Assembly: GCF_002843385.1 (NCBI RefSeq)
Contig: NZ_MVDE01000017.1
Coordinates: 1 to 64,000, forward strand
Source of the DNA: Labilibaculum manganireducens
GTDB taxonomy: Bacteria; Bacteroidota; Bacteroidia; Bacteroidales; Marinifilaceae
Direction: 5' to 3'
Length of the DNA: 64,000 nucleotides
This document shows, piece by piece, positions 1,784 to 16,207 of the stretch. The position numbers were made by a program, and so were the translations under genes. The number at the start of each line of letters is the position of its first letter. The stretch's first letter is position 1. The notes below the pieces were generated by a model. The model saw nothing but the letters and a program-made list of their open reading frames with translations. It had not been told where the DNA came from and made no database searches.

Positions 1784-2902
1784 TTAATTAGAGCAGTAAA
1801 ATAAGTTATTGTATAATTGTTTTAATTCTTTACAGTTTAGTCCTGATTTTTTTTTGGCTGAGAGCTTTTTCACAGCATCAATAAATACTTGGCTTTGCTT
1901 GTCGTTTAAATAAATTCCCATTTCTTTTAAGGTATCTTTCAGAACAGCTAAACCGGAATGTTTACCTATAATAAATTGACTTTTTTGCCCGATTAACTGT
2001 GGGTCAAAAGCATGATAACTCATTGGATCCCTGAGAAGACTGTTGCAATGAATTCCCGATTCATGACTGTAAACTTTTTCGCCTGAAATGGGTTTTGATT
2101 CTGAGTTTTTTCGTCCGGAAGCCTTTTCTACAAATTCGCAAAGCTGAATACAGCTTTTTAAATTAATTCCACTGGATTCGGAAAGTGAAAATGCCATAGC
2201 CGCAACAACTTCTTCCAAGGCAGCATTACCTGCCCGTTCCCCAAGGCCGTTCACGGTTACAGAAACAGCATTGGCTCCTGCACTTAAAGCGACAATGGTA
2301 TTGGCTGTAGCCATTCCCAAATCGTTGTGAGCATGAAATTCCAATTCTGTTCCGTCTAAACAATGTTGATATCTTTCAAACAGTTTTTGCACCGACATGG
2401 GGTTCATGATGCCTACCGTATCAGCCAGTCGAATTCGATTCACCTTTAGCATTTCAGCGGCAAAAACAAAATCATCAAGCAAATCGGTTTGGCAACGGGA
2501 AGCATCTTGTGCACCGACAGAAACAAATGCAAACATATTTTGGGCTTGTTTAACTATTGTTGATAAGGTGCCAAGCATCCAATTCCGGTCTTTTCCAATC
2601 GATGTCAGATGAATTGCTGAAACAGGGAAAGAGATATTGATTCTTGAAACACCCGTTCGGGCTGAGGCCTGCAGATCGTTGGTGCAGGCCCGCGCCCAAC
2701 AGGTGGCATTGAAACGAAATCTTTGATCGTTGATGATCCTAATGTCTTCTTCATCCGCCAAGGAGATGGCAGGAGTACCTATTTCCAATTCTTTTACACC
2801 AGTCTCGTCCAACAGAGCTGCAATTTTTAGCTTTTCTTCAAGAGAGAACACAACTCCAGGTGCTTGTTCTCCATCGCGAAGAGTGGTATCGATGATGTGC
2901 AT
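1784..2902 (-). CDS. nifV: Homocitrate synthase NifV
   Basis: A DRE-TIM metallolyase (372 aa) that condenses acetyl-CoA with 2-oxoglutarate to homocitrate, the organic ligand of FeMo-co. It begins MHIIDTTLRDGEQAPG, the active-site signature of the family, and has the metal-binding motif EFHAHNDLGMA and the downstream GLGERAGNAALEEV and SGIHCNSLL motifs. Isopropylmalate synthase or citramalate synthase are the alternatives on sequence alone. The short NifV length without the LeuA regulatory domain, and the position as last gene of the nif operon 32 nt after the ferredoxin gene, decide for NifV. An operon terminator follows. Confidence 0.93.
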   Translation of the reverse strand: MHIIDTTLRDGEQAPGVVFSLEEKLKIAALLDETGVKELEIGTPAISLADEEDIRIINDQRFRFNATCWARACTNDLQASARTGVSRINISFPVSAIHLTSIGKDRNWMLGTLSTIVKQAQNMFAFVSVGAQDASRCQTDLLDDFVFAAEMLKVNRIRLADTVGIMNPMSVQKLFERYQHCLDGTELEFHAHNDLGMATANTIVALSAGANAVSVTVNGLGERAGNAALEEVVAAMAFSLSESSGINLKSCIQLCEFVEKASGRKNSESKPISGEKVYSHESGIHCNSLLRDPMSYHAFDPQLIGQKSQFIIGKHSGLAVLKDTLKEMGIYLNDKQSQVFIDAVKKLSAKKKSGLNCKELKQLYNNLFYCSN

Positions 2903-2934
2903 GGTGTTTTTAATTAAAGAGTTATGTGTAGATT

Positions 2935-3240
2935 TTATTCGGCAATTAAATATTCGGCAACCGCCTCACCTTCTTCCAGGGCATCCAGAATTTCATCAAT
3001 TCGATCCGGCGTTACGCCTCCATACCATAGGTTGTTTGGATGAACTACCATTACCGGACCTTGCGAGCAAACATTTAGGCAGCCAGTGGTTGAAACTGTT
3101 GCGTCGATTCCTCTGTCTGCGCATTCTTCCATAAGATATTGAACCATGTCTACTGATCCGTTTTTATTGCAATATCCTTGCGCTTCTCCTGCAATTCGAA
3201 ATGAATTGCAAACTAAAATGTGAAATTCAGGTTTCTTCAT
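2935..3240 (-). CDS. [2Fe-2S] thioredoxin-like ferredoxin
   Basis: A 101-residue protein of the Clostridium pasteurianum-type thioredoxin-fold [2Fe-2S] ferredoxins. Four likely cluster ligands are visible: C11 and C24 (C-x12-C) and C54 and C58 (C-x3-C in TTGCLNVCSQGP). C40 is an extra cysteine. Start chosen at ATG 3240 (MKKPEFHILVC); the open frame extends upstream to 3339 but would overlap nifB and adds an unrelated leader. Its place between nifB and nifV suggests electron supply for NifB or cofactor maturation, or for nitrogenase itself; the partner cannot be read from the sequence. Confidence 0.88.
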   Translation of the reverse strand: MKKPEFHILVCNSFRIAGEAQGYCNKNGSVDMVQYLMEECADRGIDATVSTTGCLNVCSQGPVMVVHPNNLWYGGVTPDRIDEILDALEEGEAVAEYLIAE

Positions 3241-3296
3241 GATGATAAAGATTTTATGTGTTTTTAATTGATCATTTGAATTTTGGTTGTCGTTTT

Positions 3297-4556
3297 TCAG
3301 CTGCATCCGGTAGCAGAACCAGTACATTCTGTTCCACATTTTGTCATTTCGGTTTTGCAGAGCGAACGAAGTTCGGTGCCTTTGTAAACAGAATCCAGGC
3401 CTTGGTCGATTAGTCCGCTCATCTCGATGATTTTAATTCCGCTGCGACCTAGAATACCTGCTGGTTTTTTGCCGATTCCTCCAACTAAAATTGCTCGGCA
3501 GTCAGCCAAAGTTTCCGCTAGTTTTTCCCAACGGGAATCGCCTTGACCAGTGTCGGGAGTTGCTCTAACATTTACCAGTTTGTATCCTTTAGGTGTTTCC
3601 CTGAAAACGTGAATTCGATCTGCTTCACCCAAATGTTGATTCACCAAAATTCCTTCCATAGAGGTGACTGCAACACAAGGTCTTTCTTCTCCTTTTTCAA
3701 CTGTAAGAAGGGCTGTTTCAGAAAGTAACTTGGCCGCTTCTGCAGAATCTTTTCCGAGTAATCCAGCTGCGTCTGCCCTGCATCGTGCGCAATGTGACAT
3801 TGGCGGAAGAAATACTTCTACTTTTTTGTGTAATGATTTCATAAATTCAGGGGAAGGTTCCTCCATGTGTTCCATGGCGGTATCTTTTACCGGAAACAAT
3901 GGAATTGTGTTCATTAAATCCACTCCAAGTGTTGCAATTTTTTCTGCAATTTCTGCAATCTCATGATCGTTGATTCCCGGCATCACAATGGTATTTACCT
4001 TTACTGTAATGCCGGCTTCCTTTAGTTTGGCTATTGCTTCCAATTGTCTTTTAAGTAGATATTCTCCGGCTTGAGCTCCAAAATATCCTCTTTTGTCGTG
4101 TCGTACCCAACTGTAAACTTTTGCCAAAGTTTCGGGGCGCAAACTGTTCAATGTGATTGTAACATGAGATACGTCCAGCTCTTTTAATTCATCGATATAC
4201 GATGCTACATTTAAACCATTTGTAGATAGGCAAAGCAGCATATCCGGAAAGTTATCCCGAACCAAATGAAGTGTTTTCATGGTTTGGGTAGGATTGGCAA
4301 ATGGATCGCCTGGTCCTGCAATTCCCACCACTTTAAGCTCCGGCATTATTTTTACCAATTTAATAAGATAGCTTAATGCCTGATCGGGTGACAGAACGCT
4401 GCTGGTAACTCCGGGTCTGCTTTCGTTTACACAATCGAATTTTCGATTGCAGTAGTTGCATTTTACATTGCATGTTGGGGCTACAGGCAAATGTACCCGG
4501 GCATATTTATGATGTGCGTCTTTGTTAAAACAAGGATGAGTTGATAAATCTTTCAT
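3297..4556 (-). CDS. nifB: FeMo-co biosynthesis radical SAM protein NifB with NifX-like C-terminal domain
   Basis: NifB (419 aa) fuses two [4Fe-4S] units with a SAM-derived carbon to make NifB-co, the 8Fe core of FeMo-co. The radical SAM motif CxxxCxxC is C29-NVK-C33-NY-C36. The SAM-binding GIAGPGDPFAN follows, and CARCRADAAGLLG carries further cysteines of the accessory cluster site. From about residue 290 a NifX/NafY-like domain begins (VAVTSMEGILVNQHLG), making this the fused form. The last 20 residues carry four cysteines at 400, 407, 411 and 418 (C-x6-C-x3-C-x6-C), unusual to my knowledge. Located 53 nt after nifN and 56 nt before the ferredoxin gene. Confidence 0.95.
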   Translation of the reverse strand: MKDLSTHPCFNKDAHHKYARVHLPVAPTCNVKCNYCNRKFDCVNESRPGVTSSVLSPDQALSYLIKLVKIMPELKVVGIAGPGDPFANPTQTMKTLHLVRDNFPDMLLCLSTNGLNVASYIDELKELDVSHVTITLNSLRPETLAKVYSWVRHDKRGYFGAQAGEYLLKRQLEAIAKLKEAGITVKVNTIVMPGINDHEIAEIAEKIATLGVDLMNTIPLFPVKDTAMEHMEEPSPEFMKSLHKKVEVFLPPMSHCARCRADAAGLLGKDSAEAAKLLSETALLTVEKGEERPCVAVTSMEGILVNQHLGEADRIHVFRETPKGYKLVNVRATPDTGQGDSRWEKLAETLADCRAILVGGIGKKPAGILGRSGIKIIEMSGLIDQGLDSVYKGTELRSLCKTEMTKCGTECTGSATGCS

Positions 4557-4609
4557 GATGTGGCTTTTATGTGAGATTTCTTAACTTTATTAATTGTAAA
4601 TGCTCTCTT

Positions 4610-6007
4610 TTACATGTATTTATATCCGATAGGAGAATTATTTTGTTTGTATTCAATCATGGCATTTACCACCTTGTCGAATAATTCCTGAGTCCCCTGA
4701 TAACCAAGAAGAGTAATTCGCTGTCCTCCAATTCGATCGTGAATTGGGAAACCGACTCTTATCAGCGGGATGTTAAAATTGCCGGCAATGTAATTCCCCT
4801 TACTATTTCCGATTAGAAAATCGGGTTTAATTGTATTGCACGCCTCATTGATTTGTTCAAAATCAGAATCACTAATTACTTTGATGGTTTTTCCATGTTC
4901 CGGACAATGTTTGATGATTTCTTTTTGAAGTTTTCCGCTGTTTGCTCCCGAGGCTGCCAAGACAACTTCAACTCCTATTTCATCGAGAAATGAACACAAG
5001 CCCAGTACTAAATCTTCTTCGCCGTAAACCACAGCCTTTTTCCCAAAAATGTATTTGTGTCCATCGGCATAGGAATCCAGTAAACGGCCTCGCTGTATTT
5101 TATATTTTACAGGAATGTCTTTCCCGCTTATTTTACTTAGGATATCAAATAACGTATCGTTGCTATTCATGCCAATGGGTAAAATGCATTGGTGATTTTT
5201 CACGCTGTGTTCACTTTCCAGCCACGATGCTCCGCTAACTTCTGTTCCGCCGTTTTGCCCGCCTTGTTTTACTGCTGTGAAAACACCCAATTCAATAGAG
5301 GCGTATGCTTCGCCCATTTTCTCAAGCTCTGATATTGGAGTACCTCCCTTTGGAACACGATAATATTGATCCCAAACGGGGTTGTCCAAAGTATCCGAGT
5401 AATCGGGTAAAATTGTTGTTGTAAGATCAAAGTCGATTAAAATTTCTTTGAGATGACGAATGTCTGCAGGCGAAACAAAGCCGGGGAACAAATTGATCTT
5501 GTCTGCAGACGGCAATTTTTTTGCAAAGTTTTTGACAACTTCCAATACGGTTGCATGAAATCCGTCCATGTGTGTTCCCTGATAACTTGGAGTTGAAACG
5601 GTGAATAAACTCGGTAAATTGGAATTTGTGTTGTCGTTTCTTATGTGACTTAGTTGTGATGCAACGTCTTCCCCAATGGTTTCGCTCAGGCAGGTTGTAG
5701 CAACACCAATTGCTTTAGGCTGATATTGATTGGTAACATTGGTTAGTGCAATTTTTAAATTCGCCTCTCCTCCGAAAATAGTCGTCTCTTCACTAAAATT
5801 GGAAGAGGCAATATCTACTGGCTCTTTGTAATGACTAATCATGTAACGGCGAATGTAGGTGGCACACCCTTGAGAACCGTGAATTACAGGAACGCAACCT
5901 TCAATGCCCTTTATAGCAATACAGGCACCCAAGGGTGAGCACAGTTTACACGCATTTCGCGTTGATACAAATGGTCTGATATATGATAATGTTGGGATTT
6001 TTTCCAT
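4610..6007 (-). CDS. nifN: Nitrogenase cofactor scaffold NifN
   Basis: NifN (465 aa), the NifK-like subunit of the NifEN scaffold on which NifB-co matures to a FeMo-co precursor. It resembles NifK throughout: ACKLCSPLGAC near residue 19, then GCVPVIHGSQGCATYIRRYMISHYKEP, TTIFGGEANL, and TCLSETIGEDV. The C-terminal LIRVGFPIHDRIGGQ parallels NifK. The assignment to NifN rather than a second NifK rests on order: it directly follows nifE (5-nt gap, a translational-coupling arrangement) and precedes nifB. Confidence 0.92.
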   Translation of the reverse strand: MEKIPTLSYIRPFVSTRNACKLCSPLGACIAIKGIEGCVPVIHGSQGCATYIRRYMISHYKEPVDIASSNFSEETTIFGGEANLKIALTNVTNQYQPKAIGVATTCLSETIGEDVASQLSHIRNDNTNSNLPSLFTVSTPSYQGTHMDGFHATVLEVVKNFAKKLPSADKINLFPGFVSPADIRHLKEILIDFDLTTTILPDYSDTLDNPVWDQYYRVPKGGTPISELEKMGEAYASIELGVFTAVKQGGQNGGTEVSGASWLESEHSVKNHQCILPIGMNSNDTLFDILSKISGKDIPVKYKIQRGRLLDSYADGHKYIFGKKAVVYGEEDLVLGLCSFLDEIGVEVVLAASGANSGKLQKEIIKHCPEHGKTIKVISDSDFEQINEACNTIKPDFLIGNSKGNYIAGNFNIPLIRVGFPIHDRIGGQRITLLGYQGTQELFDKVVNAMIEYKQNNSPIGYKYM

Positions 6008-6012
6008 GTGTG

Positions 6013-7344
6013 TTAGCGTTTAAAGAATTTCCATACAGGACTCGTAACCGAGGCGTAAACCTCGTTTGCAAAGTTTAGCATGCCTTCGAAACCAGCTAAT
6101 GCTTCTTTTCTTTCGTGATTGTGATCGCAGAATCCGATTCCTAATTTGTAAGCAATCGGACGTTCTTTTACGCCACCAATAAAAAGGTCAACGCCTTTTT
6201 CTTTTACAAATTCGGAGAGTTCGTTTGGGTTCGAATCATCAACAATAATGGTTCCTTCATCGCACAATTTTTTAAGCAAATTGTAATCGTCTTTGTTTCC
6301 GGTTTGCGATCCTACCATTACGGTTTTCATCCCAATCAATCGAAGTGCTTTTACCAGACTGATTGCCTTAAAGGCACCACCAACATAAATCGCGGCCTTT
6401 TTGCCTTGTAATTTTTCTTTGAATGGTGCCAAAGCAGGTAGTAAAGTTTTAATTTCTTTTGAAACTAAATCTTTTGCTTTTTGAAGCATTTCATTATTCT
6501 TAAAAAAGCCGGCTACTTCGTAAAGGGCATCAGCCATATCTTCTATTCCAAAATAGGATACTTTAATGAATGGAATGCCGTATTTCTCTTCCATTTCTTT
6601 GGCCAGATGCATCATGGAGCCGGAGCATTGAACCACATTAATAGAGGCTTTGTGTGCCTGACGAATTTCATTTATTCTGCCATCGCCGGTAAGGCAGGTA
6701 ATGATGTTTACACCAATTTTTTCGTAATATTCCTTTAGCATCCACAGCTCTCCGGCCAAATTAAAATCACCTAAAATATTAATGCTGAAAGGAGGTGCCT
6801 GAAATTCATTATCTGTGCCAACAAGTTTGGCCAAAGCATCGCAGGCTGCTTTGTACCCATCTTTTTTTGTGCCTTTAAAACCTTCGGCCATAACCGGCAG
6901 TACATCAATTTTTTGTTCTGCAGATACTTTTCGGCATACTGCCTCAACGTCATCGCCGATAACACCTACAATACATGTGGAGTAGACAAATGCAGCCTTG
7001 GGTTTGTAGGCTTCAATTAATTCAGTAAGTGCAGTATAGAGTTTTGGTTCTCCGCCAAAAACCACATCGCGTTCGCGTAAATCGGTCGAAAAACTTAATC
7101 GGTGCAATTGAGGTCCGGAGGATAATGCGCCGCGGATATCCCAGGTGTAAGCGGCACAACCTATGGGGCCGTGAATAAGGTGCAGAGCATCGGCAATGGG
7201 ATAGAGTACAACCCGCGAGCCGCAAAAAACACAGGCGCGCTGGCTGACACTTCCGGCTAAGCTTTTCTTTTCACAATCTAAATCGTGGGCTGATGTCCCT
7301 ATTGTGTGTACCTGAGTGGATCGTTCTTTGATTATTCTCTCCAT
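6013..7344 (-). CDS. nifE: Nitrogenase cofactor scaffold NifE
   Basis: NifE, the NifD-like subunit of the NifEN scaffold. Start chosen at ATG 7344 (MERIIKERSTQVH, 443 aa); the frame continues to 7380, but the added 12 residues (MNLCLAQIQLTT) do not look like NifE. P-cluster-like cysteines are C38 and C63 (SQRACVFCGSR; IHGPIGCAAYTWDIRG), with the third in YSTCIVGVIGDD. FSTDLRERDVVFGGEPKL and the C-terminal GIGFCDHNHERKEALAGFEG region are NifE-like and lack the Cys/His pair that binds FeMo-co in NifD. It is preceded by a structured 137-nt gap after nifK and followed by nifN after 5 nt. Confidence 0.93.
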   Translation of the reverse strand: MERIIKERSTQVHTIGTSAHDLDCEKKSLAGSVSQRACVFCGSRVVLYPIADALHLIHGPIGCAAYTWDIRGALSSGPQLHRLSFSTDLRERDVVFGGEPKLYTALTELIEAYKPKAAFVYSTCIVGVIGDDVEAVCRKVSAEQKIDVLPVMAEGFKGTKKDGYKAACDALAKLVGTDNEFQAPPFSINILGDFNLAGELWMLKEYYEKIGVNIITCLTGDGRINEIRQAHKASINVVQCSGSMMHLAKEMEEKYGIPFIKVSYFGIEDMADALYEVAGFFKNNEMLQKAKDLVSKEIKTLLPALAPFKEKLQGKKAAIYVGGAFKAISLVKALRLIGMKTVMVGSQTGNKDDYNLLKKLCDEGTIIVDDSNPNELSEFVKEKGVDLFIGGVKERPIAYKLGIGFCDHNHERKEALAGFEGMLNFANEVYASVTSPVWKFFKR

Positions 7345-7390
7345 GGTTGTTAATTGTATTTGTGCAAGGCACAGGTTCATATTGAGAGTG

Positions 7391-7409
7391 AAGAAAGTAT
7401 GACTTTCTT
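7391..7409 (-). promoter_or_regulatory. Short perfect hairpin just before nifE
   Basis: AAGAAAGT (7391-7398) and ACTTTCTT (7402-7409) form a perfect 8-bp stem with a 3-nt loop. On the minus-strand transcript it lies 46 nt before the preferred nifE start, or 10 nt before the upstream alternative. It could cap a processed nifEN message or affect initiation. Confidence 0.5.
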
Positions 7410-7425
7410 TTGTTCCGGATGATAA

Positions 7426-7507
7426 AAATGAAGGAGGTGTGAGACACTTTATCCTAATTATGAGAAAAGGGTATGATTTTCAAATTAGCTAGTTACCTCC
7501 TTCATTT
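7426..7507 (-). promoter_or_regulatory. Large nested stem-loop in the nifK-nifE gap
   Basis: AAATGAAGGAGGT (7426-7438) and ACCTCCTTCATTT (7495-7507) are exact reverse complements (13 bp). Inside the 56-nt loop CTAATT (7454-7459) pairs with AATTAG (7483-7488), extended by TGAgAAAA with TTTTCA. On the minus strand the outer right arm is followed by a short T-rich stretch. Such a structure between the structural (HDK) and scaffold (EN) genes could protect an upstream mRNA end, be a processing site, or attenuate transcription; which one cannot be decided here. Confidence 0.7.
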
Positions 7508-7517
7508 CATCGCATCA

Positions 7518-8900
7518 CTACATTACCAGTTCGAATGATTCTTCAGGGCAGGCTGCATCCTGCTGATCCATAAGTTCAGAAAGAATTTTTTCAAGAATTC
7601 TCAATCCTCCCATATAGCCTAGTGTTGGAAAATAACTGTGTCCGATACGGTCAATAATTGGGAAGCCCATTCTTACAAATGGAATCTTTTCATCTCTTGA
7701 AATGTATTTTCCATAGGTGTTTCCAATTAACAGATCCACAGGATTTTCTTTGATCCATTGGTGCATTAAAAACATATCGGCATTGGCACCGTTTTTATAT
7801 TTGGCCTCTGGTACACTTTTGCTTAGAATCTTTTCCATTCTTTTTTCGAATGTTTTACCTGGAGTTCCTGAAACAATGTAAACTGGTTTCATATCCATGT
7901 CTACCAAAAACTCTGCTAATGGAATCAATTGATCGGGATCACCCCATAATGCAACACGTTTACCATACAGGTATTGGTGCATATCAGTAATAACATCAAC
8001 CAAACGTCCACGTTCATCGTTAATGGATTCAGGAACAGAAACAGATCCAAGTTTTGCCAGTGACTGAATAAAACGGTCAGTTGCCTGAATGCCAATTGGC
8101 AGATCCTGCATACTGAATTTTACTTTACACTGATTGTCGAGATTGATAGCTGCTTTTTCCGTTGCCCATTCACCCAAAGCAATAGTATGAAGGCTGTCAC
8201 CCATGCTTACCATTTCAGGAATTGTAGTTCCTCCTTTGGGATACATTTCAAATTTCCCGTTCATTGGCGAATCCAAGACATCTGAAGTGTCAGGAAGCAA
8301 AACATTTTTCACCTTCATTAGTTTTAAAATCCTTTTTAATTCTCTCATATCAGAAGGTTCTACCCAACCAGAGAGAATATTCAGCTGATTTTTAAGGTTA
8401 TCGCTTTTCTTAGCGAAATATTTTACAATACCTTCCAGCATATTGGCGTAACCAGTAACATGACTCCCCACATAACTTGGGGTTGGAGCCTGTATCACGT
8501 GCTTTCCTTCCGGAATTTTACCATCCGATGCAGCCTTACTTACAATCTGACCTAAGTCATCGCCAATTGTTTCTGATAAACATGTGGAATGTACAGCAAT
8601 AATATCCGGTTCATATATTGTAAAGATATTTGTGATTGCCTGCAGTAAGTTTGCTTGTCCGCCAAAAACAGATGAACCTTCGGTAAATGAACTGGTTGCA
8701 GCCATTACAGGTTCTTTGTAGTGTCGGGTTAAAGTACTTCTGTGATAGGAACAGCAGCCTTGTGAGCCATGACTGTGAGGCAAACATCCGTGTATTCCTA
8801 ATGCGGCATACATTGCGCCAACAGGCTGACAGGTCTTCGCCGGATTTACCGTTAAGGCCTTTCTCTCTACTATTTTACTTGTTGTATGATTTAATAACAT
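7518..8900 (-). CDS. nifK: Nitrogenase molybdenum-iron protein beta chain NifK
   Basis: The beta subunit of dinitrogenase (460 aa), which supplies half of the P-cluster ligands. Cysteines C24 (AKTCQPVGA), C49 (HGSQGC) and C107 (HSTCLSETIGDD) have exactly the spacing of Azotobacter beta C70, C95 and C153. The protein therefore lacks about 46 N-terminal residues of the Azotobacter form, as in other short-beta nitrogenases. The C-terminal FVRMGFPIIDRIGHSYFPTLGY is the family signature. It begins 14 nt after nifD and is followed by a structured gap before nifE. Confidence 0.97.
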   Translation of the reverse strand: MLLNHTTSKIVERKALTVNPAKTCQPVGAMYAALGIHGCLPHSHGSQGCCSYHRSTLTRHYKEPVMAATSSFTEGSSVFGGQANLLQAITNIFTIYEPDIIAVHSTCLSETIGDDLGQIVSKAASDGKIPEGKHVIQAPTPSYVGSHVTGYANMLEGIVKYFAKKSDNLKNQLNILSGWVEPSDMRELKRILKLMKVKNVLLPDTSDVLDSPMNGKFEMYPKGGTTIPEMVSMGDSLHTIALGEWATEKAAINLDNQCKVKFSMQDLPIGIQATDRFIQSLAKLGSVSVPESINDERGRLVDVITDMHQYLYGKRVALWGDPDQLIPLAEFLVDMDMKPVYIVSGTPGKTFEKRMEKILSKSVPEAKYKNGANADMFLMHQWIKENPVDLLIGNTYGKYISRDEKIPFVRMGFPIIDRIGHSYFPTLGYMGGLRILEKILSELMDQQDAACPEESFELVM

Positions 8901-8914
8901 CTATTTGTCCTCCT

Positions 8915-10546
8915 TTATTCGTTAATGGCAAAACTTCCAACAATTTCAGGGTCGGTTTTCCAAGGTGTAGTAACCATTTTCCAGATTCTTGTGCAAAGCA
9001 TACGCTCCATTTCCAGATAGAAATTGATTGCTCCTTCAAAACCTGCATAGGGTCCACCGTAATCGTAACTGTGTAGTTGTTTCAATGGAACTCCTGACTT
9101 TTGTACCACATATTTTTCCTTAATACCTGCACAAAAAATATCAGGTTTGTAGTACTCAATCAGCTTTTCGGTTTCCCAATGGTTGATGTCATCAATAACC
9201 AGTGAGTTCTTTTTCATTTCGGGCATCATGCCGTCATAGTTGCTGAATTCGTAACCATTTTTAAGAAGTTTTTCTTTTTTTACAGCTAAGTCTTCGCGGT
9301 ATAATTCAAGATCTTTCTCAACAGTCAGATCTTCAATGTTTCGGGTGTCGGCATCAATTTTGATGCTTGGAATAACATCTCTGCCTTCGTAATCGTCACG
9401 GTGAGCAAATTCATATCCTGCCGATACTGTGGTTACACCTATTTCAGTGAATAAATCCTGATAATGATGAGCTCTTGAACCTCCAACAAACATCATAGCC
9501 AATTTGCCTTCTGTTTTTGCTTTCACAGCTTCTCTTACCGTTTCCACTTTCTTCATCTCGCGCTCAATAATCTCTTCCACTTTTGCACTTAGCTCAGCAT
9601 CATCAAAATACTCAGCGACTTTACGAAGAGCTTTTGCACTGCCTTCTGCACCAATGAAACTAACTTTCACCCAGGGAATACCATATTTCTCTTCCATCAT
9701 CTCAGCAATGTAATTGATGGAGCGGTGACACATAATCAGGTTCAGATCGGCCATATGAGAGTATTCCATGCTTTCGATCGTAGAGTTTCCACTAAATGTG
9801 GACAGCAAAGTGATTCCTGCTTCATCAAACAATCTTTCCAATTCAAAGGCATCACCACCAATATTGTATTCGCCAAGCAAATTAATTTGGTATTTACCGA
9901 TGCGCTCTCTGTTGTTGTTTCCAATTACATTTTTGAATACTCCATTGTTTGCGATGTGATGACCAGCAGACTGAGACACGCCTCGGTATCCTTCGCAGCT
10001 AAAACCGAAAATATTAATTCCCAATTCTTCTTTCATTTCGCGGGATACAGAATGAACATCATCTCCGATCAAACCAACAGGACAGGTTGAGAAAATACCA
10101 ATCGCTTTGGGTTTAAAAATCTCGAATGCTTCTCGAACGGCATCTTTTAGCTTAGCTTCACCACCAAATACAATGTTAGAATCCTGTATGTCGGTAGAAA
10201 AACTGTAGGTAATAAAGTTATCTTCTCCTTCAGCAGGTCTGGTTTGGTTTCTTCTTGTAAGCCAGGCGTAAAAACTGCAGCCAATTGGCCCGTGAACCAA
10301 GTTGATAATATCTCTGGTTGGGCCTAATACTACCCCTTTACATCCTGCGTAAGTACATCCCCGTTGAGTAATAATTCCCGGAATGGTTCTTACGTTGGCT
10401 TGAATTTCTTTTCCTTCGGCAGGATCATTAACCACCAATGACTTTTGACGTTTCTTGGCAATTTTTGTCGGGTATTTTGCCATAATTTCATCCATCACTT
10501 TCGATGGATCCGGCAAACCCTGTGTTATATCTAATTTTTTTACCAT
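8915..10546 (-). CDS. nifD: Nitrogenase molybdenum-iron protein alpha chain NifD
   Basis: The alpha subunit of dinitrogenase, carrying FeMo-co. With the start at ATG 10546 (MVKKLDITQG, 543 aa), P-cluster ligands are C64, C90 and C155, the substrate-channel pair is Q192/H196 (RGVSQSAGHH), and FeMo-co ligands are C273 (LIMCHRSINY) and H492 (LHSYDYGGPYAGF). The cofactor His lies 50 residues later than in Azotobacter (H442), which shows a ~50-residue insertion around 385-445, as in Clostridium-type NifD. The presence of both FeMo-co ligands indicates an active catalytic subunit. The frame extends to 10579, but that would overlap nifI2. VnfD/AnfD are less likely: no delta-subunit gene (vnfG/anfG) lies between D and K. 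Confidence 0.97.
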   Translation of the reverse strand: MVKKLDITQGLPDPSKVMDEIMAKYPTKIAKKRQKSLVVNDPAEGKEIQANVRTIPGIITQRGCTYAGCKGVVLGPTRDIINLVHGPIGCSFYAWLTRRNQTRPAEGEDNFITYSFSTDIQDSNIVFGGEAKLKDAVREAFEIFKPKAIGIFSTCPVGLIGDDVHSVSREMKEELGINIFGFSCEGYRGVSQSAGHHIANNGVFKNVIGNNNRERIGKYQINLLGEYNIGGDAFELERLFDEAGITLLSTFSGNSTIESMEYSHMADLNLIMCHRSINYIAEMMEEKYGIPWVKVSFIGAEGSAKALRKVAEYFDDAELSAKVEEIIEREMKKVETVREAVKAKTEGKLAMMFVGGSRAHHYQDLFTEIGVTTVSAGYEFAHRDDYEGRDVIPSIKIDADTRNIEDLTVEKDLELYREDLAVKKEKLLKNGYEFSNYDGMMPEMKKNSLVIDDINHWETEKLIEYYKPDIFCAGIKEKYVVQKSGVPLKQLHSYDYGGPYAGFEGAINFYLEMERMLCTRIWKMVTTPWKTDPEIVGSFAINE

Positions 10547-10556
10547 AGCTTTTCGT

Positions 10557-10937
10557 TTAATTATCCAGAACTTGATCACCGCTTTCTGCAGTTCTTACAC
10601 GTATCGCTTCATTTACAGGCAAAACGAAAATTTTACCATCTCCTGGGCTTTTTGATTGATTGGCTTCGATTATTGTTTCGATACATTCTGATACCTTATG
10701 GTTCGGAACAACAACTTGAAGCAGGCGTTGAGGGCGAAGTCTGGGCTCTTTTCCTAAAAGCTCCAATGCTTCAGGCTGATCATTCTTCACGCCTTCTAAA
10801 ACTTTAGCATCCCAAAGGCCTTTGCCACGTCCGAATACACTACCAGTTGCAGTCATCGAAGAAAATCCGGCATCACGTAAAGCCCTTTTGGTTTTGTTCA
10901 TTTTGTTAATCTTGATAATGGACATTATACACTTCAT
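10557..10937 (-). CDS. nifI2: PII-like nitrogenase regulator NifI2
   Basis: A GlnB/PII-family protein (126 aa). In methanogens NifI1 and NifI2 form a complex that binds dinitrogenase and switches it off when ammonium is present; 2-oxoglutarate and ATP relieve this. Visible PII features are the start MKCIMSIIKINKMNKTKRAL, a T-loop region FGRGKGLWDAKVLEG.., and the C-terminal SPGDGKIFVLPVNEAIRVRT. It lies between nifI1 (18-nt gap) and nifD (10-nt gap), the canonical position of nifI2. The longer T-loop distinguishes it from NifI1. Confidence 0.93.
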   Translation of the reverse strand: MKCIMSIIKINKMNKTKRALRDAGFSSMTATGSVFGRGKGLWDAKVLEGVKNDQPEALELLGKEPRLRPQRLLQVVVPNHKVSECIETIIEANQSKSPGDGKIFVLPVNEAIRVRTAESGDQVLDN

Positions 10938-10955
10938 ACCTTCGAGTTTTTAGGT

Positions 10956-11282
10956 TTATAATTCTTTGGTGCCTCTGCTTATTGTATAGGCTTCATCAAC
11001 AGGAGATACGAATATTTTTCCATCACCGAAGGCTCCTTTTGGAGTGGATCGGGCAGCATCCAAAATGGTATTGATGGCGAAGTCTTTGTCTTCATCTTTT
11101 ATAACCATCATCAGCATTTCTTTAGGCAGTTCATCGTAAGTAACATCACCAATTTTGATTCCCCGTTGCTTACCGCGGCCAACCACAGGCATTTTTGTTA
11201 CAGCGATGTATCCAGCTTCAAACAGAGCTTTTAAGACCTTATTGGTTTTTTCAGGGCGGATTATTGCTTTTATCATTAACAT
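10956..11282 (-). CDS. nifI1: PII-like nitrogenase regulator NifI1
   Basis: A 108-residue GlnB/PII-family protein, partner of NifI2 in post-translational switch-off of nitrogenase. It begins MLMIKAIIRPEKTNKVLKAL, has the T-loop segment VVGRGKQRGIKIGDVTYDELPK and ends with the PII nucleotide-binding signature GAFGDGKIFVSPVDEAYTIS. It lies 58 nt after nifH. Presence of nifI1-nifI2 between nifH and nifD marks the nitrogenase lineage shared by methanogens, clostridia and green sulfur bacteria. Confidence 0.93.
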   Translation of the reverse strand: MLMIKAIIRPEKTNKVLKALFEAGYIAVTKMPVVGRGKQRGIKIGDVTYDELPKEMLMMVIKDEDKDFAINTILDAARSTPKGAFGDGKIFVSPVDEAYTISRGTKEL

Positions 11283-11340
11283 AGTCTGTATTGTTTTAAA
11301 TGTTTGGGATTATGTGTTTTATTAATTTGGGTAAGATTTG

Positions 11341-12285
<945 letters not shown>

Positions 12286-12330
12286 TTATTGTTTCTTTAT
12301 CCGTATTTGTTTTGCATTGCAGACACTTCG

Positions 12331-12354
12331 ATTTCCTACAAATTTGTAGGAAAT
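12331..12354. promoter_or_regulatory. 24-bp perfect palindrome, candidate operator or UAS
   Basis: The half-site ATTTCCTACAAA is followed directly by its exact reverse complement TTTGTAGGAAAT with no spacer. It lies 166 bp upstream of the nifH start and about 330 bp upstream of the activator start, a distance suited to an enhancer-type site. It does not match the NifA site TGT-N10-ACA or the VnfA site GTAC-N6-GTAC. Probably bound by a dimeric HTH protein, possibly the adjacent activator. Confidence 0.7.
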
Positions 12355-12627
12355 ATGGTTTTGGAGTACATATTTGAATTTAAGTGTGTAATCGTTGGTT
12401 CAGTAAGGGATTTCGATCTGTTTGATTATTTGATTCATACAGAAATGTATTTTAAACACGATGTTGAATTGAGGATTCAAACTGTAATAAAATGGTTTTG
12501 TAAGTGATGGGAATTGTTTAAATGGGGGTGTATTGGTTTTTAATGTATTTTTATTTGCATCAAACTGTATTTTTAATAGGGTATGATTTGTAATAAATAT
12601 AAATTATTAAATGAATTGTGTATTTTA

Positions 12628-12658
12628 TGGGGGTGTTGTTGCTTTTTTTATAATTTTG
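12628..12658 (+). promoter_or_regulatory. Overlapping candidate promoters of the nif activator
   Basis: TGG at 12628-12630 and TTGC at 12639-12642 have the exact spacing of a sigma-54 promoter (TGG-N8-TTGC), although the CAC of the -24 box is GGG here. TAATTTTG at 12651-12658 fits the Bacteroidetes TAnnTTTG -7 box. Either would place the transcript start after 12650, so the coding start must be downstream, favouring ATG 12686 (or 12662) over 12611. Confidence 0.4.
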
Positions 12659-12685
12659 CAGATGTACCCCCTTAAATATTCGCTT

Positions 12686-14242
12686 ATGAGTTTAAAATGC
12701 AAAAAAGCAGGCGACGAATGTTATGGTTTTAATGAAATGTCTCTTCTTTTCGATATAAGCCAAAGACTTTTGAACAGTAATGAATTAAAAAAGGATTTAT
12801 CTCCGATATTAGCTTGTTTGGTGAAACATTTGAATGCCGAAAGAAGTTTTATCACGATTTTTAATCGGCAAACAAACCGGATGATGATTGAGGCTGCCTA
12901 TGGATTAAGTGCATCGCAGCAAGCAAGGGGAAAGTACGATTTGGGTGAAGGAATTATAGGTAAGGTTGTTGAATTGGCCAGGCCTGTTGTTATTTCTGAA
13001 ATATCAAAATCGAAACTTTTTATCAACAAAATTAAAACGGAACTTACAAAAGACGGACACGAGTTAACTTTTATTTGTGTGCCGCTTTTGCTTGATAATG
13101 TTGTAACCGGAGCCTTAAGTGTTGTGAGAATTTACAATTCCAACATTTCTGTTAATGAGGATATTCAGCTATTGAGTATTGTTGGATCGATGATTGCAAA
13201 AACGGCCCGATACAAGCAAGCTAAGCTTGAAGAATTAGAAGCATTACGAGAACAAAACAGAGAATTGCAAAGTCAGCTCGATAGCCAAAAACCGCATAAT
13301 ATTATTGGTAACTCAGGCAAAATGTGTGATTTGTATGCATTGGTGAATCGGGTGGCCCAAACAAACAGCACGGTTTTGTTACGTGGCGAAAGTGGGATTG
13401 GAAAAGAACTATTTGCTGAGGAAATACATGCCAAAAGCAAACAAAAGGATCGTAAACTAATTAAAGTAAATTGTTCTGCATTGCCGGAAAGTTTAATTGA
13501 AAGTGAACTTTTTGGACATGAGAAAGGTGCATATACAGGAGCTGATCAAATGCGAAAGGGGAGATTTGAATTAGCCGATGGGGGAACAATATTTTTGGAT
13601 GAAATAGGTGATTTGCCTTTATCTACGCAAGTAAAATTGTTACGGGTTCTGCAGGAAAGAGAGTTTGAACGTGTGGGTGGTTCTAAAACCATTAAGGTTG
13701 ATGTGCGAATAGTGGCAGCAACAAACCGTAATTTGGAGGAGCTAATTGAGAATGGTGATTTTAGAGAAGATTTCTATTACAGAATTAATGTTTTTCCAAT
13801 ATTTATTCCTCCTTTACGACACAGAAGAGATGATATTCCAATTTTGGTTGATCATTTTATCGATAAATTTAATCGAAAGAATAATTTTCAAATTAAAAGA
13901 ATTACAACATCTGCAATAAATATGTTGATGGTTCATCGTTGGCCTGGAAATATTCGGGAACTGGAGAATGTAATTGAGCGATCGTGCATAATGACGAAAG
14001 ATAATGTTATTCATAGTTACGATTTACCTCCAACTCTTCAAACTGCCGATTCAACAAACAGTGTAATGGAAGGTGGAATGATGGTTGTGGTTGAGCAGCT
14101 TGAAAAACAATTGATTCGGGATGCACTCACGACTACGGCCGGGAATGTGACAAAAGCGGCTGAATTGCTTTGTATTACAGAGAGAATGCTGGGGACAAGA
14201 GTAAAAAAATATGAGATTGAAACCTGGCGTTTTAAAGTGTAA
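12686..14242 (+). CDS. nifA: Sigma-54-dependent activator, NifA-like (GAF-AAA+-HTH)
   Basis: A 518-residue enhancer-binding protein, the likely activator of the divergent nif operon. Order: two cysteines C5 and C12 just before the first domain, a GAF domain (about 18-190), a short coiled linker, the AAA+ domain with Walker A GESGIGKE, the sigma-54 contact loop as GAYTGA (the Y variant of GAFTGA), GGTIFLDEIGDLP and the R-finger region FREDFYYRINVFPI, and a Fis-type HTH (GNVTKAAELLCITERMLGTRVKK). The cysteine cluster of oxygen-sensitive proteobacterial NifA between AAA+ and HTH is absent. The N-terminal cysteine pair instead recalls VnfA/AnfA. Frame is open from 12611, but promoter elements overlap that stretch. 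Assignment to NifA is by architecture and position. Confidence 0.85.
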   Translation: MSLKCKKAGDECYGFNEMSLLFDISQRLLNSNELKKDLSPILACLVKHLNAERSFITIFNRQTNRMMIEAAYGLSASQQARGKYDLGEGIIGKVVELARPVVISEISKSKLFINKIKTELTKDGHELTFICVPLLLDNVVTGALSVVRIYNSNISVNEDIQLLSIVGSMIAKTARYKQAKLEELEALREQNRELQSQLDSQKPHNIIGNSGKMCDLYALVNRVAQTNSTVLLRGESGIGKELFAEEIHAKSKQKDRKLIKVNCSALPESLIESELFGHEKGAYTGADQMRKGRFELADGGTIFLDEIGDLPLSTQVKLLRVLQEREFERVGGSKTIKVDVRIVAATNRNLEELIENGDFREDFYYRINVFPIFIPPLRHRRDDIPILVDHFIDKFNRKNNFQIKRITTSAINMLMVHRWPGNIRELENVIERSCIMTKDNVIHSYDLPPTLQTADSTNSVMEGGMMVVVEQLEKQLIRDALTTTAGNVTKAAELLCITERMLGTRVKKYEIETWRFKV

Positions 14243-14290
14243 TTTTAAAATAGATTTCCAAACTGTAAATGCTTTTGCAAACCGAAAAAC

Positions 14291-14776
14291 ATGACAACAC
14301 TTCCTTTTTCCTTTGTAGAGCTGAATCTTGATGATTCGGATCATCAGGCTGCATTGTTCAATTTAATGAATGCGTATATGTTGGATCGGATGGGATGTGA
14401 AAAGCCATTGCACGTCGATTCTTTCAAAGAATTAGTACGTGGATTGCAAAAACAGGCTAATTATATTGGTGTGTTGGTGATAAATGAGAATAAATATATT
14501 GCTTTGGCGAATTGCTTTGTGAATTTTTCAACGTTTAAGATGTCTTCTCTCATAAACATTCATGACTTAATAGTTTTACCTGATTACAGGGGGAAAGGTG
14601 TAGGGCGATTCTTAATGCAATCTGTTAAAGCCATTGCCCGGAAGAAGGATTGCTGCAAAATAACCTTAGAGGTTCGAAACGACAATCAAACAGCTCAAAA
14701 TCTTTACCTTTCGGAAGGTTTCAAGGAGTGTAATCCTCCAATGTATTTTTGGGAAACAACAATTGATCGGGCTTAA
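14291..14776 (+). CDS. GNAT-family N-acetyltransferase
   Basis: A 161-residue acetyltransferase. The acetyl-CoA-binding motif A is visible as DLIVLPDYRGKGVGRFLMQ, and motif B as LEVRNDNQTAQNLYLSEGFKEC. The substrate is unknown. It begins 48 nt after the activator on the same strand and may be co-transcribed, but nothing in its sequence ties it to nitrogen fixation. Confidence 0.85.
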   Translation: MTTLPFSFVELNLDDSDHQAALFNLMNAYMLDRMGCEKPLHVDSFKELVRGLQKQANYIGVLVINENKYIALANCFVNFSTFKMSSLINIHDLIVLPDYRGKGVGRFLMQSVKAIARKKDCCKITLEVRNDNQTAQNLYLSEGFKECNPPMYFWETTIDRA

Positions 14777-15193
14777 AATTAGAAACTATTTAAAAATTTA
14801 TTCTTTAGCTTTTCATAAGCCAAAAAGATCAAGAACCACTATTCGCATCAAATTTGCCTTATTCTGAGTCTTTTTTCTTCGATAAAAATTTCTATAAATA
14901 AATTTAAACAGCTTCTAAAAATACTTTTGAAATTAAATTGGTATTAACAACTAATAATTACCTGCCTAATGTATTGCCCTCGCTTTTATAAAATTATAAT
15001 TGCGATTTTTTCATTTAACGAAGCCGTTAACGTATTATAATGACTTGCCTAAGCCTTTGGTGGAGGTATTAACAAATAATAACGACTTATTTTTGATGTT
15101 TCTCTGCAAAATGCTTATTGCTTCTGGCTTTCGAGGGTTTTACTTTCTAAAAATAAATTTGAACAGCTTCTTAGGCGAATTAATTATTTGAGG
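14777..15193. repeat. Non-coding region with decayed repeats, including a remnant of the MITE-like element
   Basis: No convincing gene. TTTTGAAATTAAATTGGTAT at 14925-14944 is identical to the right end of the 163-bp repeats at 16332 and 51917. Upstream, CATCAAAtttGCCTTAT (near 14849) recalls their left part, so 14840-14944 may be a decayed copy. AATAAATTTRAACAGCTTCT occurs at 14897-14916 and 15152-15171, and GGTATTAACAA-TAATAA occurs near 14940 and 15066. Confidence 0.5.
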
Positions 15194-16207
15194 TTATGAA
15201 TTAATTACCAAATCCTTCAAGGTGGCAATCCACTTCGGATGATCGTTTAGGCTCTCAACCAAGGCTAATTTTTCGCCACCGTTTTCCTCGAAAATTTCTC
15301 GGTATTCCATTCCAATTTCTACAGTTGTCTCTAAGCAATCAGCAACAAAAGCAGGACTGAAAACAAGTATCTTTTTAGTGCCATTTTTTGCTTTTTCTTC
15401 CACTACTTTATCAGAGAATGGTTCCAGCCAGTTTTTGTCCAATCGGGATTGAAAGGAAACGGTATATTTTTCTTTGGGAATAGATAATTTTTCAGCCAAT
15501 AAGCGACTGGTCTCGAAGCAGGTTGAACGGTAACAATAATAATCTGTTTCCGGAATAAATTTTTTGTGACAATCGCATTTAAAACAATTCCGGTTAGGAT
15601 GAACTTTGTTTATTTGACGAATTGGCAGTCCATGATAAGAGAATATGAAATGATCAAAATTGTTTAAATCATGCATTTTGGCATTTTCAGCAATAGTATC
15701 AAGGTATCCTTCATGGTCGAAGAATTGGTTTACAAATTTAACTTCAGGAATTACTTCCCAGGATTTGATAATTTCCATAGCCTTCTGGAAGGTAGAACCT
15801 GTTGATGAGGAAGCATATTGAGGATACATTGGAAGGATAATCAACTTCTGAGGCATATCCTTTTGTATTTTATCCAAAACGCTCTTCATCGAAGGTTGCT
15901 GATAGCGCATGGCCATCTCTACAGTAAAATTGGAATCCAGTTGCTTTTGAAGCAAGTCTTTTACTTTTTCTCCGTAAATCATCAATGGAGAACCTTCTTT
16001 GGTCCACAATTTTTTGTAGATTTTTGATGAACCTTTTGCCCGAAAAGGAACGATAATAAGGTTTACTAATATTTTCCGTAACAACCAGGGAATGTCAATT
16101 ACTCTCGGGTCGTTTAGGAATTCGAAAAGATAGGTGCGAACATCAGATACATCAGGACTTTTTGGTGTTCCTAAATTGAGTAGTAAAACAGTCGTTTTTT
16201 TTGACAT
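15194..16207 (-). CDS. hemH: Ferrochelatase HemH
   Basis: Ferrochelatase (337 aa) inserts Fe2+ into protoporphyrin IX (or coproporphyrin III), the last or second-last step of heme synthesis. It starts with VLLLNLGTPKSPDVSDVRTYL, has MYPQYASSSTGS, the catalytic histidine in FSYHGLPIRQI, and the acidic FSPAFVADCLETTVEIG near the C-terminus. Cysteines in NCFKCDCHKK and YYCYRSTC (about 215-240) are unusual-looking and might bind a metal. hemF lies upstream on the same strand, separated by a MITE-like repeat. Confidence 0.95.
   Translation of the reverse strand: MSKKTTVLLLNLGTPKSPDVSDVRTYLFEFLNDPRVIDIPWLLRKILVNLIIVPFRAKGSSKIYKKLWTKEGSPLMIYGEKVKDLLQKQLDSNFTVEMAMRYQQPSMKSVLDKIQKDMPQKLIILPMYPQYASSSTGSTFQKAMEIIKSWEVIPEVKFVNQFFDHEGYLDTIAENAKMHDLNNFDHFIFSYHGLPIRQINKVHPNRNCFKCDCHKKFIPETDYYCYRSTCFETSRLLAEKLSIPKEKYTVSFQSRLDKNWLEPFSDKVVEEKAKNGTKKILVFSPAFVADCLETTVEIGMEYREIFEENGGEKLALVESLNDHPKWIATLKDLVINS

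Follow-up and report, generated by a model that had tools for sequence, protein, structure and literature searches.

Little is known about how nif genes are activated outside the well-studied groups, and the locus analyzed here, in which an operator, its probable activator and a promoter come together in one stretch of 500 bp, raises the question of what a perfectly symmetrical sequence between nifH and a divergent activator gene is for. In the 64,000-nucleotide stretch of Labilibaculum manganireducens DNA that was analyzed (hereinafter, the window), a 24-bp perfect palindrome, ATTTCCTACAAATTTGTAGGAAAT, occupies positions 12331-12354, exactly as described in an earlier note made from the letters alone; being symmetrical, it is assigned to neither strand. 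No other perfect palindrome in the window reaches 18 bp. Dinucleotide shuffles give an expectation of 0.01 palindromes of at least 24 bp per 64 kb; calculated from base composition, the expected number is 0.0095 in the window, 5.8e-5 in the 388-bp gap at 12223-12610 and 0.79 in a 5.3-Mb genome. The earlier judgment that such a sequence is very unlikely by chance thus holds for the window and for the gap but not for the genome as a whole; the palindrome is strong evidence because of its place, given that such sequences are expected nearly once per genome anyway. In the genome of the same strain (5.32 Mb in 97 contigs), the search for unrelated occurrences that the earlier note had suggested found no second copy at up to 3 mismatches. 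The inner part of the palindrome, CTACA-N4-TGTAG, occurs at 3 places in this genome and the reversed-pattern control at 5; with no enrichment of this pattern, a genome-wide regulon is unsupported. The shorter dyad TAC-N6-GTA is by itself common in AT-rich DNA (15 occurrences in the window vs 6.6 expected).

The center of the dyad is located 177 bp upstream of the start codon of nifH (11341-12165, minus strand; start at 12165; 452.9 bits with the NCBIfam nifH model, cut-off 394.35), the first gene of an operon that is presumed to be driven from the nifH promoter and to span positions 1784-12165 of the minus strand, where all genes have the same orientation and the largest gap is approximately 137 bp. 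The operon encompasses nifH, two PII-like genes, nifD, nifK, nifE, a nifN-like gene, nifB, a small ferredoxin-like ORF (named from its position only) and a nifV-like gene, with the scores of the nifN-like and nifV-like proteins falling below their curated cut-offs. The NCBIfam models for nifH, nifD and nifK are above their cut-offs and those for ANFD and VNFD are far below theirs. Because the operon types as Mo-nif, the palindrome, although predicted to work like an AnfA site (see below), does not mark an anf promoter. The nifH of the window is 99% identical to its counterparts in Labilibaculum sp. K2S and in a Marinifilaceae MAG.

Comparison with relatives shows which part of the palindrome is kept. 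Among 393 genomes of the order, 30 contained a nifH match; after G055, a fragment, was dropped, 28 new loci and the window were scored (29 order loci), whereas the other members of the genus (L032-L037) were counted apart, and a nifH fragment (L031) and two 48% paralogues (L038 and L039) were left out of all counts of nifH upstream regions. The conserved core TAC-N6-GTA, at 12337-12348 in the window (TACAAATTTGTA; neither strand), occurs in the 400 bp preceding nifH in 26 of the 29 order loci, compared with 2.05 in shuffled sequences (sd 1.43, max 7, n=300), and is the most widespread of the 1344 three-base dyads with spacers of 0-20 in these regions; the runners-up, found in at most 25 regions, are AAA/TTT dyads that are equally frequent in shuffles, and the inverse dyad GTA-N6-TAC is found in 2 regions. 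At 90% identity, all 29 order loci are distinct, as are 27 of the 28 Chlorobia-type loci and all 55 loci from other phyla discussed below. The consensus of 33 order sites reads TTCCTAC(A/C)-WWWW-TGTA(G/A), in which conservation is higher in the left arm than in the right one. The NifA-type dyad TGT-N10-ACA occurs in 3 of the 29 regions and is absent from the palindrome itself, and the VnfA-type GTAC-N6-GTAC occurs in none of the 29, so that neither consensus is enriched in the order.

The test in close relatives proposed in the earlier note gave the same result: all 6 congeners with nifH, three of them nearly identical, keep the core, at -173 to -177 from nifH (L033 and L034 do not differ in their upstream sequence). 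The outer arms are more variable. Symmetry over the full 24 bp is perfect in the window alone among the scored loci and extends over 22 bp in L032-L034; over 18 bp, 8 of 9 pairs are retained in L035 and L037 and fewer in L036. The arms of the Labilibaculum-type loci co-vary, from CCTAC..GTAGG (L035) through CTTAC..GTAGG, a one-arm intermediate (L036), to CTTAC..GTAAG (L037), and such joint change between species is what is expected of a dimer's site.

The three order loci without the core lie in genomes G151, G326 and G387, two of which share one genus. The stretches that were read contain no canonical nifD; D/K genes are present in two of them, though only distantly related (24-28% identity), and none passed the threshold in the third. 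By their sequences, these loci resemble the uncharacterized nif-like genes of Prevotella bryantii that Inoue et al. describe (PMC4356463), rather than plain Mo-nif operons that lack the enhancer. Their NifH proteins (L222 in G151, L223 in G387 and L224 in G326) are 72-75% identical to that of the window, and neither the core within 400 bp nor the activator was found. The D/K-like proteins belong to L222 and L224, with none detected at 1e-10 for L223, and the gene order in L222 is a B-like ORF, recognized by eye, followed by D, K and H. In the two paralogous loci (L038 in G397 and L039 in G420), the NifH-like stretch (48%) is embedded in long open frames (773 and 793 aa) that might encode fusion proteins.

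The core is typically accompanied by a second copy. Using a leave-one-out weight matrix and taking the second-best site 14-110 bp from the best one, we found a partner at a distance of 29-31 bp in 21 of 26 order loci (shuffled-flank control: mean 0.78, max 3, n=100); in the Chlorobia-type loci, this distance is exactly 28 bp in 25 of 28 cases. The partners are often weak (4 of the 21 score negative), and the strong copy of the tandem is distal or proximal depending on the locus; in L018 and L020, the partner at 30-31 bp is a CTAC..GTAG dyad with a spacer of 7 bases instead of 6. The window is one of five order loci outside the 29-31-bp spacing, because a site 101 bp upstream of the palindrome (TAC-N6-GTA, 12438-12449, strand not assigned; TACATTTCTGTA on the minus strand) scores higher than the copy in the 30-bp slot. 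That copy is a weak distal TTC-N6-GTA (TTCAAATATGTA, 12367-12378, minus strand), in which the GTA half is exact. The slot is degenerate throughout the genus, and its GTA half and position are kept in all 7 Labilibaculum-type loci; the second-best copy lies 101 bp further up in the window and in five of the six congeners, and L037 has CAC-N6-GTA at 102 bp instead. The two-site layout of the window consists of the strong palindrome, a second core that is exact (-101) and a slot at -30 that is degenerate, with a sigma-54-like element downstream.

This -24/-12 element of the nif operon, TGGTACGCTTTATGAA, is located at 12206-12221 on the minus strand, 121 bp downstream of the palindrome center as measured from the -24 half, and has the same sequence in 5 of the 6 congeners (TGGTACACTTTATGTC in L037). 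The sigma-54 promoter consensus is TGGCAC-N5-TTGC; scored against this consensus with weights that we set ourselves, the element reaches 19.2 compared with a pooled shuffle 99th percentile of 18.8, its -24 half being good and its -12 half degenerate (TGA, not TGC). An element within 110 bp of nifH exceeds the 95th percentile of shuffles in all 25 loci scored; L023, which has the core and in which no convincing element was seen, was omitted, and a wider scan of L028 ranks another match (at -182) higher. The distance between core and element is 118-170 bp, bunching near 120, 130, 150 and 160 bp, with exceptions at 83 bp (one locus) and at 221 and 222 bp (two far sites). The genome of the window strain also encodes rpoN.

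On the other side of the palindrome, divergent from nifH in the window and throughout the genus, lies a gene (12686-14242, plus strand) for a protein that combines a GAF domain, a sigma-54 AAA+ domain and a Fis-type HTH (HTH_8) in Pfam searches. The ORF is open from 12611, and the start at 12686 is our choice of the likely one. With the NCBIfam nifA model (TIGR01817), the protein scores 507.3 bits and so stays under the cut-off of 528.85; the alignment stops at residue 472 of 543, leaving the HTH unmatched. The gene might be expressed from a weak candidate for a Bacteroidota-type -7 box at 12651-12658 (plus strand, TAATTTTG), the exact pattern of which is kept in 6 of 7 genus loci. TAC-N6-GTA is found upstream of 6 of 17 scorable activator genes (23 tried; 0.92 expected), which does no more than hint at autoregulation through this dyad. 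Directly downstream of the activator gene is a gene for a GNAT acetyltransferase (14291-14776).

At E <= 1e-110, the activator is present in 32 of the 40 genomes searched, among them every one of the 26 order genomes that have the core and of the 7 nifH-containing genus members (the window belongs to both sets; the congener without nifH, G421, is outside this count). It is absent from the three genomes of the core-less loci and from five others that lack a full nifH of this type (G055, G420, G397, G106 and G353). For the co-occurrence of core and activator, 26 of 26 vs 0 of 3, Fisher's test gives 2.7e-4, but the weight of the three negatives is limited because these loci lack a canonical nifD and two come from one genus.

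Across the 30 order and genus activators (of 32) that were extracted, the HTH mostly reads GN-x-x-KAA..LGITER-x-x-G-x-R-x-KKY, compared with GWVQAKAARxLGxTxRQ in three annotated NifA proteins; where the latter have TPRQ or TTRQ, the window protein has ITERMLGTR, that is, no NifA-type recognition region. Three cysteines are conserved in the same 30 proteins, namely C5 (25/30), C12 (27/30) and C131 in the GAF domain (30/30), with counts of 1, 0 and 14 of 14 in the Chlorobia-type proteins and 2, 0 and 0 of 3 in NifA. Most of the order and genus activators thus contain an N-terminal C-X6-C pair in addition to C131, possibly an Fe-S or redox sensor. A further cysteine column in the linker region, 429, is also filled (14/30 order and genus, 12/14 Chlorobia-type and 3/3 NifA proteins), so the cysteine pattern alone does not place the activator with AnfA/VnfA. 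In a plasmid HTH search for proteobacterial AnfA/VnfA (30 of 48 records listed), the two hits that were inspected, H43 and H53, proved to be response-regulator-type bEBPs with no nif genes on the stretch.

The core extends well beyond the order. In a sample of the phylum, 83 of 395 genomes contained nifH; scoring was confined to the 29 new loci with the highest scores, which do not amount to a random draw. Families f134 and f136 are labelled Chlorobia here. The core is located upstream of nifH in 25 of 28 Chlorobia-type loci (25 of 29 before L085, with 83 bp of upstream sequence, was dropped), and the activator is matched at E <= 1e-80 in all 15 Chlorobia-type genomes searched. Among named Bacteroidota and Chlorobiota loci, 22 of 23 have the core (shuffles, 2.0), or 16 of 17 once 6 that duplicate order or genus loci are removed, and the NifA-type dyad is at the chance level (3 of 23; shuffles, 2.9); the one exception, L160, comes from a genome of approximately 1.9 Mb with no activator match at E <= 1e-95. 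One Chlorobia-type cluster, L219 (G448, positions ~5700-15430), has the layout H, D-like, 119 aa, K-like, which suggests an alternative nitrogenase; it encodes a paralogous activator of its own, in which the HTH differs (TRRALSLR), and TAC-N6-GTA occurs twice ahead of the nifH-like gene, starting at distances of 180 and 408 bp.

The earlier suggestion that the site might be specific to Bacteroidota has to be given up: in 55 named loci from other phyla (L180 and L189, with less than 350 bp of upstream sequence, dropped), the core is found before nifH in 30 (shuffles, 2.0), compared with 4 for the inverse dyad (2.0) and 13 for the NifA-type dyad (4.0). Outside Bacteroidota, where NifA-type sites are enriched as well, the link between core and activator is looser. 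When 50 mostly non-Bacteroidota genomes were typed for the HTH by a crude rule, the core was present in 20 of 26 genomes with the non-NifA type only, 8 of 15 with both types, none of 3 with the NifA type only and 3 of 6 with neither, a distribution that agrees with, and does not prove, recognition by the non-NifA-type HTH.

Several other functions of the palindrome have to be weighed against that of an activator site. The site could serve another sigma-54 activator of the genome, such as an NtrC-like protein, and other bEBP-like genes exist: a first look gave 27 candidates in this genome, the adjacent one included. The presence and absence of the adjacent activator's orthologue across the order nevertheless follow those of the site, the gene is divergent from nifH in the window and the genus, and a sequence that is unique in the genome is unlike the site of a global regulator, all of which makes this assignment unlikely. 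That the site is an operator for a repressor, as the earlier note also considered, for instance for a nitrogen- or metal-responsive dimer, would fit both the perfect symmetry, typical of dimeric repressors, and the position between divergent genes; yet the center of the palindrome is 121 bp upstream of the -24 element, beyond the reach of simple occlusion there, and the second copy at a fixed distance of 28-31 bp in relatives, together with the match to the AnfA consensus, points to an activator site. We regard the repressor, for which no support emerged from these comparisons, as highly improbable.

The symmetry itself could be meaningless, considering that a palindrome of this length is expected about 0.8 times in a genome of this size and that among the scored loci its full extent is confined to the window, with 22 bp in L032-L034. 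The expectation for the intergenic gap is several orders of magnitude lower (5.8e-5) and the conservation of the core across the phylum already refutes chance for the core, so that chance as an explanation of the palindrome is barely credible; for the outer symmetry alone, chance could be part of the explanation. Finally, the window sequence would fold as RNA at -11.9 kcal/mol (z -4.2), as would suit an attenuator or terminator, but the palindrome lies upstream of both predicted promoters and has no T-run, and relatives keep mainly TAC and GTA while the spacer and flanks often do not pair. This lack of pairing leads us to reject the hairpin in spite of its z score, and we give the idea practically no credence.

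We therefore return to the activator site and consider it very probable that the palindrome is an AnfA-like upstream activating site (UAS), namely the proximal, strong half of a sigma-54 enhancer that is bound by the adjacent activator and drives the Mo-nif operon. The proposal that it is an enhancer between nifH and its activator, made in the earlier note, is backed by conservation, geometry and activator co-occurrence, all judged at the sequence level. Under this model, a dimer or higher oligomer of the activator would bind TAC-N6-GTA via the C-terminal Fis-type HTH, with additional contacts provided by the weaker copies, which lie 30 and 101 bp upstream of the palindrome. The AAA+ domain would then reach the sigma-54 RNA polymerase at 12206-12221 by looping and open the promoter, and the nifH-nifV operon would be transcribed, presumably as a single unit. 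The GAF domain might sense a signal, perhaps oxygen or redox as the conserved cysteines hint.

The closest parallel is provided by AnfA of Rhodobacter capsulatus. According to PMC7294313, AnfA recognizes two 17-bp repeats with the consensus TAC-N6-GTA, as reporter assays and the binding of its purified DNA-binding domain demonstrated. Single mutations in TAC or GTA lower expression by 60-80%, full expression requires both sites, and GTA is the stricter half. The resemblance to these anfH sites includes the identical core dyad, its occurrence in copies upstream of a sigma-54 nitrogenase promoter, and the retention of the GTA half in the weaker sites in both systems (PMC7294313). The R. capsulatus sites are bound by a GAF-AAA+-HTH activator, and a protein of the same architecture is encoded beside the palindrome. 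The target is different: in R. capsulatus, AnfA controls the Mo-free nitrogenase and Mo-nif is controlled by NifA (PMC7294313), whereas here the site precedes a Mo-nitrogenase operon. In addition, the flanks reach TTTCC/GGAAA here, and a strong copy is frequently paired with a weak one.

Similarity to VnfA is partial. The VnfA site of Azotobacter vinelandii is given as GTAC-N6-GTAC in PMC7294313, and ChIP-seq of VnfA1 yielded GT(T/A)C-N6-GTAC, found twice in most promoters (PMC9542535). These sites share the inner TAC-N6-GTA, and the two sites in most VnfA promoters have a similar spacing (PMC7294313, PMC9542535), but the outer bases are G..C in VnfA sites and C..G in the palindrome. The proteobacterial NifA site, TGT-N10-ACA (PMC7294313), has the same role and place and does not share its sequence. 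Hence the earlier statement that the palindrome is neither a classical NifA site nor a classical VnfA site holds for NifA (3/29 and 3/23, as above) and for the outer bases of VnfA, and fails for the core, which matches the AnfA consensus and also forms the inner part of the VnfA site.

For Bacteroidota, no nif operator appeared among the titles and abstract openings of the matches listed, which mostly do not cover subscription journals. Inoue et al. mention nifA near some clusters and give no site in the part of the paper seen (PMC4356463); nitrogen fixation has been reported in Labilibaculum in a paper that does not show the data and that, in its available sections, deals on regulation with regulatory genes only (PMC9765461). 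A survey of sigma-54 reports, in its accessible part, enrichment of nitrogen-fixation genes in Chlorobiia, Spirochaetia, Desulfobacteria and others, and none in the classes left unnamed (PMC12316311); the degenerate -12 half of the Bacteroidota promoters may explain how a matrix could miss them. The nearest precedent for the idea is DVUA0143 of Desulfovibrio vulgaris, which has an AnfA/VnfA-like N-terminal domain and was predicted, together with a motif, to control the nitrogenase operon, a prediction that covers five Desulfovibrionales genomes only (PMC4641369).

Judging from these comparisons, the predicted enhancer is real and conserved, ordinary in kind and new in place: the AnfA consensus was known, and its apparent use at Mo-nif operons across Bacteroidota and in parts of other phyla is new. 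More tentatively, and with the balance somewhat against it, TAC-N6-GTA with a tandem slot at 28-31 bp could be a general, perhaps ancestral, enhancer of group III Mo-nitrogenases in Bacteroidota, Chlorobiota and parts of Spirochaetota, Desulfobacterota, Verrucomicrobiota and Planctomycetota, with a single family of non-NifA-type activators recognizing it. The NifA site would then be the special solution, and the proteobacterial AnfA and VnfA a branch of this older family that moved to the alternative nitrogenases. The probable enhancer described here connects the control of Mo-nitrogenase in anaerobes with the AnfA/VnfA system, and binding, swapping and ancestry become directly testable.
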